Virus record (IMG/VR): IMGVR_UViG_3300036846_000948
Location: 1-25,298 of that record
DNA from: a virus
Length of the DNA: 25,298 nt
Reading direction: 5' to 3' (one strand)
A program made the translations under genes and the position numbers. The notes below the pieces were generated by a model. That model had not been told where the DNA came from. It searched no databases and saw only the letters and a program-made list of their open reading frames with translations. Shown in pieces: positions 2,793 through 25,007 of the stretch (positions within the stretch are counted from its first letter, which is position 1; every line of letters begins with the position of its first letter).

Positions 2793-3170
2793 ATGGCTGG
2801 CCCCGCTTACTACACCGGCACGATGAATATCGCGATGAACGAGGATTGGATCGTGCCGTTCCTGTATGCCACGCTCAACTCAGATGGAGTCACCACGACG
2901 CCCATCGATCTCACTGGCTCGACGTTGAAGATGGAAGTCAGGAAAAGCGAAAGTGATCGCAACGTCGTCGTCTCGATGTTCTCCCCGAACAACGGCATTC
3001 AAATCACCGACGCGCCCGGCGGCGCCTTCACGGTCCTGATGGATCGCAATCGCTTGAGCCAATTGTCGCCGGGCAGCTACGTGAGCGACATCGTGCGGCT
3101 GATGCCGAACGGCTGGCAGGAACGGCTCTGGGAAGGCACCGCCACGGTCGTCGAGGGGACGACGCGATGA
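2793..3170 (+). CDS. Small beta-rich tail/baseplate-associated protein, 125 aa
   Basis: A GAGGGA ribosome site precedes the ATG by nine bases. The pattern NEDWIVPFLY...PIDLTGSTLKMEVRK...LSPGSYVSDIVRL...[14 protein letters not shown] resembles the immunoglobulin-like N-terminal module of BppU-type baseplate proteins and similar small phage proteins that precede fibre genes. That similarity is from memory of the pattern, not a search. The stop overlaps the next start as ATGA (3167-3170), so it is translationally coupled to the collagen-like fibre. A role as adaptor or attachment module for that fibre is inferred. Confidence 0.85.
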   Translation: MAGPAYYTGTMNIAMNEDWIVPFLYATLNSDGVTTTPIDLTGSTLKMEVRKSESDRNVVVSMFSPNNGIQITDAPGGAFTVLMDRNRLSQLSPGSYVSDIVRLMPNGWQERLWEGTATVVEGTTR

Positions 3171-4165
3171 GCCTGCAAACGCTCACGGTGCCGCAGGTCG
3201 GACCGCCGGGGCCGCCAGGGCCGCCAGGGGCGCAAGGCGTGCAAGGCGTGCCCGGCCCGCAGGGTCCAGGCGGCACAGGTCAGCAAGGCGAGCCGGGGCC
3301 GCCGGGGCCGGCCGGCGGGCTGCCCGAAGCGCCGACCGACGGCAACCGCTACACGCGGCAGAACGGCGGGTGGGTCGGGATTAATGGCGTGCTCGCGCCG
3401 CTCTCGTCACCGATCTTCACCGGCGATCCGCATGCGCCGACGCCGCCCGCCGCCGACAACGATACCTCGATCGCGACGACCGCCTTCGTCCAGACGGCGA
3501 TTGCCAATTCGGTTCCTGGTAGCACCGCGCCCAAGGTCACCCTGATCTCGGCGAACGGGACGTTCACCACGAACGTCAACCCGCCAACCAAATACGCCAC
3601 CATTGAGAGTTGGGGCGGTGGTGGTGGTGGTGGTGGCTGCGCTGCTTCCACATCGACGACAGGTTCGGGAGGCGGCGGCGGCGGGGCCGGAAGCTACTCG
3701 CGCAAAACCGCAAGTGCGGCGGCGCTCGGCGCGTCGCAGCCGGTCACCGTCGGCACCGCTGGAGCAGGCGGCGCCGCTGGGAACAATGTCGGCTTAGCTG
3801 GCGGCGACACGTCGTTCGGGACTCTCTGCGTCGGCAAAGGCGGCAGTGGTGGCCTCGGCGGCACGGGCAACCTCTGTACGCCACCGGGCGGTAACGGTGG
3901 TGTTCCCGGCACCGGGGACGTGACCGGCTACGGACAACCCGGCGAGCACGGAGCCGGTTCGGCTAATACCGTCAACTTTCAGCCCATGAGCGGCAACGGA
4001 GGATCGACCTTGGTCGGTCAGGGAGGTCGCGGCACAGGTGGCGGCGCGTCCAGTGCGTTCGGCTATGGGGCCGGTGGTGGTGGCGCCAACTCATTCAACG
4101 GCGCTGGCGCGCTCGCTGGCGGCGCTGGTGCTCCCGGCCTCATAGTCGTTACGGAGTATTTCTGA
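3167..4165 (+). CDS. Collagen-like and glycine-rich tail fibre protein, 332 aa
   Basis: Three parts are visible. Residues ~12-51 are Gly-X-Y triplets ([16 protein letters not shown]...), expected to form a collagen-type triple helix in a trimeric fibre. Residues ~52-115 contain [21 protein letters not shown]...[11 protein letters not shown], a common phage fibre repeat module. From about residue 146 the protein is extremely Gly-rich, including a run encoded by GGC(GGT)5GGC, and resembles the glycine-rich tip domain of phage adhesins such as those with polyglycine-II helices. The last residues (GLIVVTEYF) end one base before the next ATG. It probably forms a receptor-contacting fibre; the receptor is unknown. 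Confidence 0.92.
3614..3634 (+). repeat. GGT trinucleotide microsatellite encoding polyglycine
   Basis: The unit reads GGC, five GGT, GGC in the reading frame of the collagen/glycine-rich fibre. Slippage here would add or remove glycines without breaking the frame. Confidence 0.85.
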
Positions 4166-4166
4166 A

Positions 4167-5159
4167 ATGGCGAACGGCGGTGATCGCTTCACGCTCGCCA
4201 GCGGCACGCCGCGCATCACGCTGATCAAGAGCGCGACGGCGGAAGATCAAGTGCTGACCATGCCGCCGATCGGGCCGGCGGGGCCGCAGGGCCCGCAAGG
4301 CGCGCAAGGCATTCAAGGCGTGCCCGGCCCGCAGGGTCCGGGCGGCACAGGTCCGCAGGGCGAGCCAGGCCCGCAAGGCGTGGCAGGGCCGGTGGGACCG
4401 ACCGGCGCGGCCGGCGCGCAGGGACCGCAGGGGCCGATCGGCAACACCGGGCCGGCAGGCCCGCAGGGCACGACCGGCGCGCAGGGGCCGATCGGCAACA
4501 CCGGGCCGCAAGGGCCGATCGGCAACACGGGGCCGCAGGGACCGACCGGCGCGCAAGGACCGAAAGGCGATACGGGCGCGCAAGGCCCGCAAGGTCCGCA
4601 GGGCGTGCCGGGAACGCCCGGCTCTGGTGGTAGTTCGACGATTTATATTTCTGACACTGCCCCGACCGGAGTGCCTGTCGGAAGCATGTGGTGGGAGAGC
4701 GACACCGGCGTTCTCTATATCTACTACAACGACGGCGACAGCACCCAATGGGTCCAGGCGGCGGCTTCTGCACCCAGCCCCTCTTATGTGAACACCAATG
4801 GGGTGTGGGTTCCTAACGATCAGAGTGGTGCCGGCCTCGTATTCAGCAACGTAAACGTCGGCTATTCCCGCGTCGGGAACATGGTTCATGTTTATGGCCG
4901 CTGCCAATATCCAACGAATTCGGACAGCAAGACCCACTTGATTGGCGGGCTTCCTATTCTAGTGCCAGCCGGCTTGGCCAATCAGAATCCAAACGTCGTT
5001 TATAATTCCAAGCAGACGCTCTCGACTGGACCTTACACGATCACGCCATTGAATAATTCTACAAACATGCAAATTTGGGACATTACTGGAAGTCCGCCAA
5101 CCAATGCGACCTTGAGCAACGCATTGTTGGTGTTCAACGCAATGTACCCGGCTTCGTAG
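4167..5159 (+). CDS. Collagen-like tail fibre protein, 330 aa
   Basis: After a ~32-residue N-terminus, about 40 Gly-X-Y triplets run from residue ~33 to ~152, rich in [15 protein letters not shown] and GPTGAQGP units. Then comes [31 protein letters not shown], a short beta-rich module common in phage fibres, and a C-terminal globular domain (~residues 200-330) that would be the distal tip. The first triplets are nearly identical in DNA to those of the preceding fibre gene, pointing to duplication or gene conversion between them. It starts one base after the previous stop; an ACGGAG-like ribosome site lies inside that gene's end. Function: trimeric shaft plus receptor-binding tip, by inference. 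Confidence 0.92.
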
Positions 5160-20072: not shown

Positions 20073-20282
20073 TCACCCGCGTTGCCGAACCTTGCCCGTC
20101 TCGACCAGAACGAACGCGCGCCGGATTTCCTCGCCCTCGCGCCGCTCGACCCTCGCCATCAGCCGACCCCACACCACCCGCCGCACCCGGAAGCCGCCGC
20201 GCTCCTGCCGCCCGAGCGCATAAGCAGCAGCGTTGCACGGGCGCCGGCAGTCTTCGGGCCTAAGATGATAGCGCACCGTCAT
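20073..20282 (-). CDS. Doubtful small basic ORF, 69 aa
   Basis: It starts at ATG 20282, overlapping the 3' end of the upstream gene by 23 bases, with only a weak ribosome site (GGTTGGA). The product is Arg-rich (AYALGRQERGGFRVRRVVWGRLMARVERREGEEIRRAFVLV) with two Cys near the start. Without it the interval 19981-20259 would be empty. The Arg/Gly bias can also arise from random GC-rich sequence, so I hold it as tentative. Confidence 0.42.
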   Translation of the reverse strand: MTVRYHLRPEDCRRPCNAAAYALGRQERGGFRVRRVVWGRLMARVERREGEEIRRAFVLVETGKVRQRG

Positions 20283-21297
20283 TGATCCAACCCAATTCGC
20301 GCATGGCATCAAGCACGACGCGCTCACGCTCCACCCGCGCCTGTGCATACCCACGCCGCTGCTCACGCCATTCTATTGTGCCGGACAAGCGGTGACGTCG
20401 CTGCCGCCTTTTCCAACGTCCCCACTCTGGCAGCTTGGTTTTGACCCCAGACAGCGCCTTGGTTAGTTCCGGCGGAATCGCTGCCCCACTTTCTTCCAGA
20501 TCGATAAGTTGCTGAATCAGCGAATGATGAATCGCCTCTGGCTGTCGTTTGCGCTTGTGTTTCATCTTTGCGCGGTATTCGGGGTCTTGCCATCTCAGTC
20601 GCATGGCTTCGCTGCAGGTGCGGCGAACCTTTTTGGCGCGGAAGTCTGGTAATTGCCATTTTCGCATAGCCTCGACATCTGAATTGCCGGGAGGCGGCGA
20701 CGGATTGGGAGGTCTTTTCGGCGGCGGCGGATCGCGATGCTGCTGAACCTTGTATCCGTCTAACCATCCAAGCTCGCGGAGTGCGATTATCGGCGCTCGA
20801 CGTTTGAGCTTCCTCGCCTTATCCCGCTCGTAACGGCGTGCTTTATATTCCGGTGTATGTTGGCGCTCTAAGCGGAGCGGATATCGGCGCTCGTCACGCC
20901 TTCGCCGCCCGATACGTTCGGCAACTAACTTGCAATCGAGCGAGCATGTGAATCGGCGCCCATCCTCGCTCGTGATATCAGTTCCGCAAACGATGCACGC
21001 GCGCATTTGTCTCTCAGCAAGCCGCAAAACACGCGCTTGGTTCCTCTCGGCCTCGCGCTCGCGCCGTCGCTGCTCAATTTCTCGCCGTCTCTCGGCAAGC
21101 CGCAAAACGCGCTCTTGCCGTCGCAGTTCGCGAGTCTCGGCAGAGCGCTCACGGCGTCGCGCATCACGGCGCCGGTAATGCATTCGCCGCCTGGCACGTT
21201 CGGCAGCTAACTTGCAATCCAGCGAGCATGTGAATCGGTTGAGCGGATGCTCGCTCATGTCGGTTCCGCAAACCATGCACGCGCGCTTGGGATACAC
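20260..21297 (-). CDS. Arg-rich protein with duplicated Cys4 zinc motif, 345 aa
   Basis: Start is GTG 21297 with AGGAAGG four bases ahead. C7xxC10...C24xxxC28KLAAER and C101xxC104...C118xxxC122KLVAER are two copies of the same zinc motif, with the CVCG...YCS..C style of phage DNA-binding proteins. Between them (~33-98) is an Arg/Glu-rich, probably coiled-coil helix containing LRLAER twice. Downstream are repeats of PEYKAR/PEYRAK and RELGW (174 and 333). A nucleic-acid-binding role is likely by composition. The C-terminus overlaps the doubtful ORF 20073-20282. Confidence 0.87.
   Translation of the reverse strand: MYPKRACMVCGTDMSEHPLNRFTCSLDCKLAAERARRRMHYRRRDARRRERSAETRELRRQERVLRLAERRREIEQRRREREAERNQARVLRLAERQMRACIVCGTDITSEDGRRFTCSLDCKLVAERIGRRRRDERRYPLRLERQHTPEYKARRYERDKARKLKRRAPIIALRELGWLDGYKVQQHRDPPPPKRPPNPSPPPGNSDVEAMRKWQLPDFRAKKVRRTCSEAMRLRWQDPEYRAKMKHKRKRQPEAIHHSLIQQLIDLEESGAAIPPELTKALSGVKTKLPEWGRWKRRQRRHRLSGTIEWREQRRGYAQARVERERVVLDAMRELGWINDGALSS
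20914..21286. repeat. Duplicated ~90-bp segment within the Arg-rich gene
   Basis: Copies at about 20914-21003 and 21196-21286 share ACGTTCGGCA, AACTTGCAATC, AGCGAGCATGTGAATCGG and CCATGCACGCGCG-like blocks, so the two Cys4 motifs come from a DNA duplication. They are in the same orientation and direct, not tandem. Confidence 0.8.
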
Positions 21298-23234: not shown

Positions 23235-25007
23235 TCAGGGATAGAGCCAGTCCGAAATGCGCACCTTCCCGCGTTCGGGATAGGTGATGAGGTCGAGGCT
23301 TTTCATCCGCGACCGGAGCGTGTCGAACGTCGAGGACGTGAAGGAATAGCCGGTCGCGTCGGCAAGCTGCTCGAGCGTCAGGGTCTTCCTGCCGATCAGC
23401 GCATCGAAAAACTTCTGCATCGGGCCCCGGAGCTTGCCGCGCACCCGAGCGTGATATTCCATCATCGTCGGTGATCGGGCCGGCGCGACCGCGAGCCGCG
23501 TGCCCTTGTCGGTCAGCCGCATGCGGCCTTGGTCGGGATAGTCGATCAGCCCGGCCGATTTCACCCGCGATCGGAGGGTGTCGAACGTCGAGCTGGTATG
23601 GGAATAACCGGCAACGAACGCGGTCTGGGCGAGGCTCGCGGAGCTGTGCCCACCGACGCCCCACCATGCCAGCGCGTCGAGGATCGCCTGCTGCCCCTTG
23701 GGAAGCCCACCGTTGGGCTTCGCGGCGCCCCCTGTCGGTGCCCGTCGCATGGGCGCGGGCGCAATGGGCGCCTGCCGCTGCTCGATCTGGGCAGGGTACA
23801 AAGGGCGGTCGATTTCGGGGGGCGCTTTGATGGCCTCCCGCAGCTCGCACTCGATCTGCGCCATGTTGGCGGCGACGCCTTGGGTGATCGCCGCGATCCG
23901 GGTTGTGAGCCCGACGATCCGCGCCGTCACCTCATTGCGGCCTTCCGCATATCCTTCTGCGCGTGCGAGATCGCCCAATTCGTCGAGTTCATCCTGGCTC
24001 CAATTCCTTTCGCCTGGCGCCTGGGCGGCGAGCGCCCGCTCCAGATCGCCGATCCGCGCCTTGAGCGCGATGGGGTCACTGCCCTCGGCCTCGGCCGCCG
24101 CCTCGCCGATCAGCTCGCGCAGCTCGCCGACGTCGACCGGCGCCGTCGTGATCCGCGCCGGCCCGCTGTCCTGTGTCGGGGTCGCGGTGTTGTCGTAGGT
24201 GGCGATCCGCGCGAACGCCATGCGCTTGAAAATCTGCGCCTCGCCCGAGCACACCCAGCCGGTGCCGGTCGGCAGCTTGGCGAGCGAGCCCTCGACCTCG
24301 GCGCGCAATTCCTTGTCGGCGACATTGGCGCGCAGCCATTTGATGACGGGCTCCTGGTCGGCCGGCGACAGGATGCGATGCGCGATCAGCGTCTCGCACG
24401 AGCCGAGCACGGCGTTGTGCAGCGATTGAATCCGGTGCGTCGCGACGATCAGCCGGATGCCCTTGGTGCGCGCTCCGGTCGCGAGTTTCTTGGCCCAATG
24501 GATCGCCAGATTCTCGCTGCCGAACCCGACGCGTTCCTTGGGCGCGAATTCGTGCGCCTCCTCGATCACCAGATAGACGACGCCGCGCATGTTCTTCCAA
24601 AGCGCCTGCGCGAAATCGACAAAGAACCGCTGCAGGCCGCCGGCTTCAAAATCCGCCATGTCGACGATCGAGAGCGGCAACTTACCCTGGCCGACCAGCG
24701 TGCCGATGATCTTGCCGGCCGACGAATGCAGCGGGACGTGACCGTGCGGGCCGCCGAGAATCTTGAACGGCAGGCCCGGCTGGCGGCCATCGGCGCTCGA
24801 CGTGATGCCCCACCAGTCGGATTTGATTGGATCGAGAATGCAGACGCGGAAGCCGGCGAGCTGGGTTTCGATCGCGAGCTGCTCGATCGCGAGCTTGGCG
24901 GTCGACGTCTTGCCGCTGCCGGTCTTGCCGAGCACAGCCGTATGCGCAAGCAGAACCGCTTCGGGAATCTTGGCGTTGCGTTCTGATTGTTCGCGACCTA
25001 TGTTCAT
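23235..25007 (-). CDS. HerA/FtsK-like ATPase with duplicated C-terminal wHTH, 590 aa
   Basis: Walker A GKTGSGKT (27-34) and Walker B VVYLVIEEAHEF (143-154, E149/E150), then IRLIVATHR (184-192), place it in the HerA/DUF87 branch of FtsK-HerA ATPases. LDPIKSDWWG (58-67) fits the same core. Residues ~300-400 are helical, followed by a Pro/Ala linker. The C-terminus has two winged-helix copies sharing GYSxTSSTFDTLRSRxKS (468-484, 554-570), each about 85 residues. No NurA nuclease is adjacent. A role in DNA translocation, replication or defence is open. No clear ribosome site precedes ATG 25007. Confidence 0.93.
   Translation of the reverse strand: MNIGREQSERNAKIPEAVLLAHTAVLGKTGSGKTSTAKLAIEQLAIETQLAGFRVCILDPIKSDWWGITSSADGRQPGLPFKILGGPHGHVPLHSSAGKIIGTLVGQGKLPLSIVDMADFEAGGLQRFFVDFAQALWKNMRGVVYLVIEEAHEFAPKERVGFGSENLAIHWAKKLATGARTKGIRLIVATHRIQSLHNAVLGSCETLIAHRILSPADQEPVIKWLRANVADKELRAEVEGSLAKLPTGTGWVCSGEAQIFKRMAFARIATYDNTATPTQDSGPARITTAPVDVGELRELIGEAAAEAEGSDPIALKARIGDLERALAAQAPGERNWSQDELDELGDLARAEGYAEGRNEVTARIVGLTTRIAAITQGVAANMAQIECELREAIKAPPEIDRPLYPAQIEQRQAPIAPAPMRRAPTGGAAKPNGGLPKGQQAILDALAWWGVGGHSSASLAQTAFVAGYSHTSSTFDTLRSRVKSAGLIDYPDQGRMRLTDKGTRLAVAPARSPTMMEYHARVRGKLRGPMQKFFDALIGRKTLTLEQLADATGYSFTSSTFDTLRSRMKSLDLITYPERGKVRISDWLYP

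Follow-up and report, generated by a model that had tools for sequence, protein, structure and literature searches.

Sequence recognition through a C-terminal domain or motif is described for other DNA translocases. In FtsK, a C-terminal winged-helix (wH) domain, gamma, loads the motor on KOPS (PMC5357621), and in TraB of Streptomyces plasmids a C-terminal motif recognises 8-bp TRS repeats on the plasmid that encodes it (PMC4170104, PMC5365140). TraN of pIP501 also has a pair of wH domains within a single chain, and there the pair makes up an internal dimer that reads two half-sites (PMC6540685); the contact residues differ between its two helices, being R23, N24 and Q28 in one and H82 and R86 in the other (PMC10877727). 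Here we describe a phage ATPase that carries two C-terminal wH domains whose recognition helices are matched to each other. In the open-access literature, outside which most subscription journals fall, we found no description of this ATPase family or of matched tandem recognition helices.

The window, by which we mean the whole stretch of DNA analysed, is a virus record of 25,298 bases. A Mu gp48-like tail gene (3-728) and a tyrosine integrase identify it as part of the genome of a temperate tailed phage. Downstream of the tail gene lie two genes for collagen-like proteins with Gly-X-Y repeats, which probably belong to the tail fibre (3167-4165 and 4167-5159, plus strand). The ATPase gene forms an intact open reading frame, and its features are collected in Table 1. 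Besides the duplication within the ATPase, a second internal duplication was found near this gene, in a 345-aa protein (20260-21297, minus strand) with two treble-clef-like Cys modules, RACMVCGTD...FTCSLDCKLAAER and RACIVCGTD...FTCSLDCKLVAER.

Table 1. Positions in the window of the ATPase gene and its predicted parts.
Feature	Position	Strand	Basis
Whole gene: 590-aa ATPase of the HerA/FtsK superfamily, with two winged helices in tandem at its C-terminus	23235..25007	-	
ATPase motor (residues 14-290), which leaves no space for an N-terminal HAS barrel	24138..24968	-	Pfam DUF87 E 1.6e-6; HerA 8xau match
Walker A GKTGSGKT, residues 27-34	24906..24929	-	Invariant residues in alignment
Walker B VVYLVIEEAH, residues 143-152	24552..24581	-	E149, E150 invariant
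Long helix (residues 338-394), probably a coiled coil	23826..23996	-	AlphaFold2 secondary structure
Disordered Pro/Ala-rich linker, residues 396-432	23712..23822	-	pLDDT <50 over 396-432
Winged-helix domain 1 (wH1), residues 437-505	23493..23699	-	Structure prediction; MarR/DtxR-like, VIA Z 9-10
Recognition helix 1 TSSTFDTLRSRV, residues 471-482	23562..23597	-	Matched to helix 2
Winged-helix domain 2 (wH2), residues 529-588	23244..23423	-	Structure prediction and structural match
Recognition helix 2 TSSTFDTLRSRM, residues 557-568	23304..23339	-	Matched to helix 1

The motor is a HerA/FtsK-superfamily ATPase by its Walker A motif, its Walker B motif with the catalytic acidic pair, and its fold. 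Pfam found DUF87, the HerA central domain, and residues G27, T29, G30, G32, K33 and T34 of Walker A, as well as the acidic pair of Walker B, were invariant among the aligned relatives. An AlphaFold2 model of the whole protein, made from an alignment of 26 relatives, had a mean pLDDT of 83.6. Over about 240 residues, its motor matched HerA structures with VIA Z scores of 20-24 (for 8xau, Z 24.0 and rmsd 2.7 over 238 aligned residues), VirB4 with Z about 20, the packaging ATPase B204 with Z 16-18 and FtsK with Z about 16. The N-terminal HAS barrel that precedes the motor in classical HerA is absent, since Walker A starts at residue 27 and the structural match starts at about residue 130 of HerA. 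NCBIfam HerA models scored only 31-37 bits against cut-offs of 800-970, so there was no full-length HerA match, and the regions matched by defence HerA models were mostly common ATPase motifs. A match to PHROG 2666, which is labelled terminase, was limited to residues 21-241. A separate TerL was present in 13 of 50 records with the ATPase gene and also in MW202482; the ATPase is therefore not the packaging motor in those records, and that reading was rejected for them.

A sequence-only reading of this DNA had proposed a C-terminal internal duplication with two nearly identical wH repeats. The duplication was confirmed: the two 18-mers, GYSHTSSTFDTLRSRVKS (residues 467-484, DNA 23556-23609) and GYSFTSSTFDTLRSRMKS (residues 553-570, DNA 23298-23351), share 41 of 54 nucleotides and lie about 10-20 bp away from the coordinates first given, and the protein alignment of the first repeat (R1) with the second (R2) scored 139 against 22.8 +/- 4.4 for 2000 shuffles, with a maximum of 52. 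When the C-terminal 160 residues were modelled alone, both repeats folded with high confidence as winged helices (pLDDT 93.5, pTM 0.80). Single wH domains matched MarR, DtxR and Z-alpha type winged helices (VIA Z 9-10), and a Foldseek search with the whole tandem arrangement returned no PDB chain at E<=0.001. The near-identity of the two winged helices is confined to the recognition helix. The overall architecture first suggested, in which a HerA-type ATPase bears a pair of modules for reading DNA and no fused NurA, is supported, with DNA binding by the modules presumed.

Comparison with relatives placed this single duplication within a larger pattern of paired helix variation and swapping that is visible only across the family. 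We fetched 23 viral and 6 genome loci, with one phage record annotated 'hera helicase', and then about 40 further viral loci and relatives on plasmids of Mycolicibacterium, Clavibacter, Mycobacterium and Gemmatirosa. About 55 relatives came from phages and prophages, mainly of Alphaproteobacteria, with Bradyrhizobium, Reyranella and Ferrovibrio among the named hosts. Two wH domains were present in every relative that covers the C-terminus, and actinobacterial plasmids carry proteins of the same design. The window's nearest relative (locus L032) is 60% identical and has the same helices, and its locus shows synteny to the window.

In an automatic alignment of 55 relatives, the recognition helices of R1 and R2 were 0.830 identical within a protein and only 0.220 identical between proteins. 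The flanks behaved differently. Before the helix, R1-R2 identity within a protein was 0.213, compared with 0.219 (R1-R1) and 0.242 (R2-R2) between proteins; after the helix, the corresponding values were 0.257, 0.303 and 0.305. Because the flanks are no more alike within a protein than between proteins, the two wH domains stem from an old duplication in which only the reading helix has been locked. The same matching was seen in a set of 54 proteins with 52 distinct R1 helices, where none of 10000 permutations reached the observed value. In this set, positions 472-474, 476-478 and 480 were matched between R1 and R2 in 87-100% of proteins, whereas positions 475, 479 and 482, which are mostly hydrophobic and presumed buried, were matched in just 54-69%. 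Nearly all relatives follow this pattern; the helices of L014 and L018 match poorly, and L022, L065 and L080 are partial. No third protein with the same helix motif was found elsewhere in the records searched.

Matching of this kind could be produced by gene conversion. Among 255 identical residues in 20 genes, both copies used the same codon 104 times, compared with 104.0 expected from each gene's own codon use; sharing exceeded expectation in the window's gene (10 against 6.7) and in MW202482 (12 against 6.7). With no overall synonymous excess, gene conversion was rejected as the source of the matching. The helix pair is kept matched by co-selection.

Helix identity was uncorrelated with motor identity (Spearman -0.10 over 1431 pairs), and exchanges were found in both directions. 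The motors of L044 and L012 are 95% identical and those of L003, L010 and L022 86-91% identical, yet within each group the helices are unrelated; conversely, L033 and L072, and L042 and L092, have identical helices on motors that are only about 38-40% identical, and overall the same pair was seen on motors with identities down to about 36%. At the DNA level, the 90% similarity of L044 and L012 ends some 784 bp short of the stop codon; the stretch that follows is unalike, and similarity of 81-90% returns at the stop and continues beyond it. L033 and L072 share no more than the final ~460 bp of the gene. These comparisons indicate that the wH pair behaves as a swappable specificity cassette, which most probably recognises a single DNA word in two copies.

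Several searches for such a word yielded no target site. Among over-represented words in 30 records, no dispersed KOPS-like or Chi-like word was enriched; palindrome counts were biased in this search, and short palindromes were left out. No credible direct or inverted dyad was shared within 13 groups of elements with the same helix, the candidates in the EKN and GHLKN helix groups being rejected as they look like Walker A coding DNA and a coding PQDV repeat, respectively. Differential words among five Bradyrhizobium records were scattered single copies only. Clustered repeats were also considered. In record G001 (L096 10095-10380), AGTTTGGGA-N3-AGTTTGGGA pairs lie to either side of the 3' end of a tRNA; they were discarded as a target, as they are probably integrase arm sites at an attachment site of the window's nearest relative. 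In record G028 (L114 2531-2660), a set of six repeats of ~24 bp, each with a TGACA...TGTCA core and separated by C-rich spacers, begins roughly 300 bp downstream of the ATPase gene. This is a possible binding array, but it was not found in further phages whose helices are related. A CACGCTGTC repeat, spaced at 12 bp, forms arrays at both ends of record G040 (L148 1-200; L151 4072-4300). The target site may be present in low copy number, may lie beyond the fragments searched or may be a host site.

No gene was constant near the ATPase across 55 loci. Within 6 kb we found an ExoX-like DEDDh exonuclease in 11 of the 55, DUF5131 in 10, a ParB-like gene in 7, a Dam methyltransferase in 5 and an SMC/Rad50-like gene in 3. 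In Bradyrhizobium elements the ExoX-like gene is usually 1-2 kb upstream of the ATPase, and in L003, L010, L022 and their relatives from this genus the 1-7 kb upstream hold a recurrent set of genes: a PP2C phosphatase, a kinase-like protein, a Dam methyltransferase and the ExoX-like exonuclease, followed by the ATPase. ExoX was not found near the ATPase of the window's nearest relative. NurA was not seen among the annotated neighbours of the 55 loci, several of which, like the window, are truncated. No nuclease partner is constant across these loci. The window itself extends only 291 bp beyond the start of the gene, too little to tell from it alone whether a nuclease is encoded upstream.

With slightly better than even confidence, we regard the protein as a TraB/FtsK-like dsDNA translocase of temperate phages and plasmids that is loaded at an element-specific site through its wH pair. 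The motor would form a ring, presumably a hexamer, on dsDNA. The wH pair would read its short, element-specific word in direct or inverted copies, and this binding would load or orient the motor on the element's own DNA. ATP-driven pumping of dsDNA, in a presumed direction, would follow and could serve segregation, replication or transfer of the element. Against this reading count the negative target searches, the inconsistent neighbours and the fact that no conjugation module was evident adjoining the window's gene. Loading at a two-copy word is proposed from the layout of FtsK and TraB, here doubled with matched helices.

A different role for the same motor would be end processing in phage recombination or repair. 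Its partners would be an ExoX-like exonuclease and, in some cases, a Rad50-like ATPase, and processing would be controlled by a sequence, either Chi-like or a mark of self, that the wH pair recognises. The HerA-NurA precedent and the ExoX/DEDDh and SMC/Rad50-like neighbours speak for it, but the exonuclease is absent within 6 kb in 44 of 55 loci in the sequence stretches examined, and neither NurA nor an enriched dispersed Chi-like word was found. We consider this role unlikely. Less probable again is a motor for defence or superinfection exclusion, whose matched helices would recognise competitor DNA and change under an arms race. Many defence systems include HerA motors, and cassettes are exchanged rapidly on a conserved motor here; nevertheless, the motor has neither a fused nor a constant neighbouring effector nuclease, SIR2 or DUF4297, and the matches to defence HerA models cover chiefly the common motifs.

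The matching itself might have a cause other than DNA reading. If the wH domains packed as a pseudo-dimer through helix 3, symmetry could keep the helices alike, and TraN demonstrates that such an internal dimer can arise from a pair of wH domains on the same chain (PMC6540685). We give this a low probability, marginally below that of the defence role: by its position the segment corresponds to the recognition helix of an HTH, drift is seen at the presumed buried positions and locking at those that should point outward, and the TraN helices differ in their contact residues (PMC10877727), so that an internal wH pair alone need not force matching. Recent duplication or gene conversion within each gene, without functional meaning, is very improbable. 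The DNA similarity of the window's 18-mers would fit it, but synonymous sharing equals expectation, the likeness stops at the helix, and the two-domain layout recurs in every relative covering the region.

Returning to the element-specific translocase, we suggest tentatively, and with somewhat less than even confidence, that the cassette with its paired helices serves the motor as an address label: the same word would always be read by both helices, exchange would re-target the motor, and the label could mark self and non-self. If so, exchange of a cassette of about 150 residues is how phages and plasmids direct a conserved DNA motor to new targets. Specificity-domain swapping in restriction enzymes is a parallel. 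The matched pairs predict a repeated DNA word for each element, and more than 50 natural proteins, in which about 50 different recognition helices occur as co-selected pairs of copies on a common scaffold, would be unusually clean data for a winged-helix recognition code.

Compared with known systems, the protein shares its ATPase fold and Walker A and B motifs with HerA of the archaeal HerA-NurA and the HerA-SIR2 and HerA-DUF4297 defence systems, but it lacks the HAS barrel and any fused or constant NurA, SIR2 or DUF4297, and it has a C-terminal tandem wH. FtsK/SpoIIIE, whose gamma domain reads KOPS/SRS, likewise places a winged helix C-terminal of a superfamily motor; here there are two per subunit, their helices vary between elements and no KOPS-like word was detected. 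Streptomyces TraB resembles it in having an FtsK-family motor, a linker and a C-terminal wHTH, but TraB is described with a single recognition motif and a role in conjugation, whereas the present family has two matched wH domains on a HerA-type motor in both phages and plasmids. TraN of pIP501 shares the two wH domains in one chain, but it has no ATPase and its recognition helices use different residues. The machine is a variant of known translocases, and its new part is the matched, hypervariable and swappable pair of readers.
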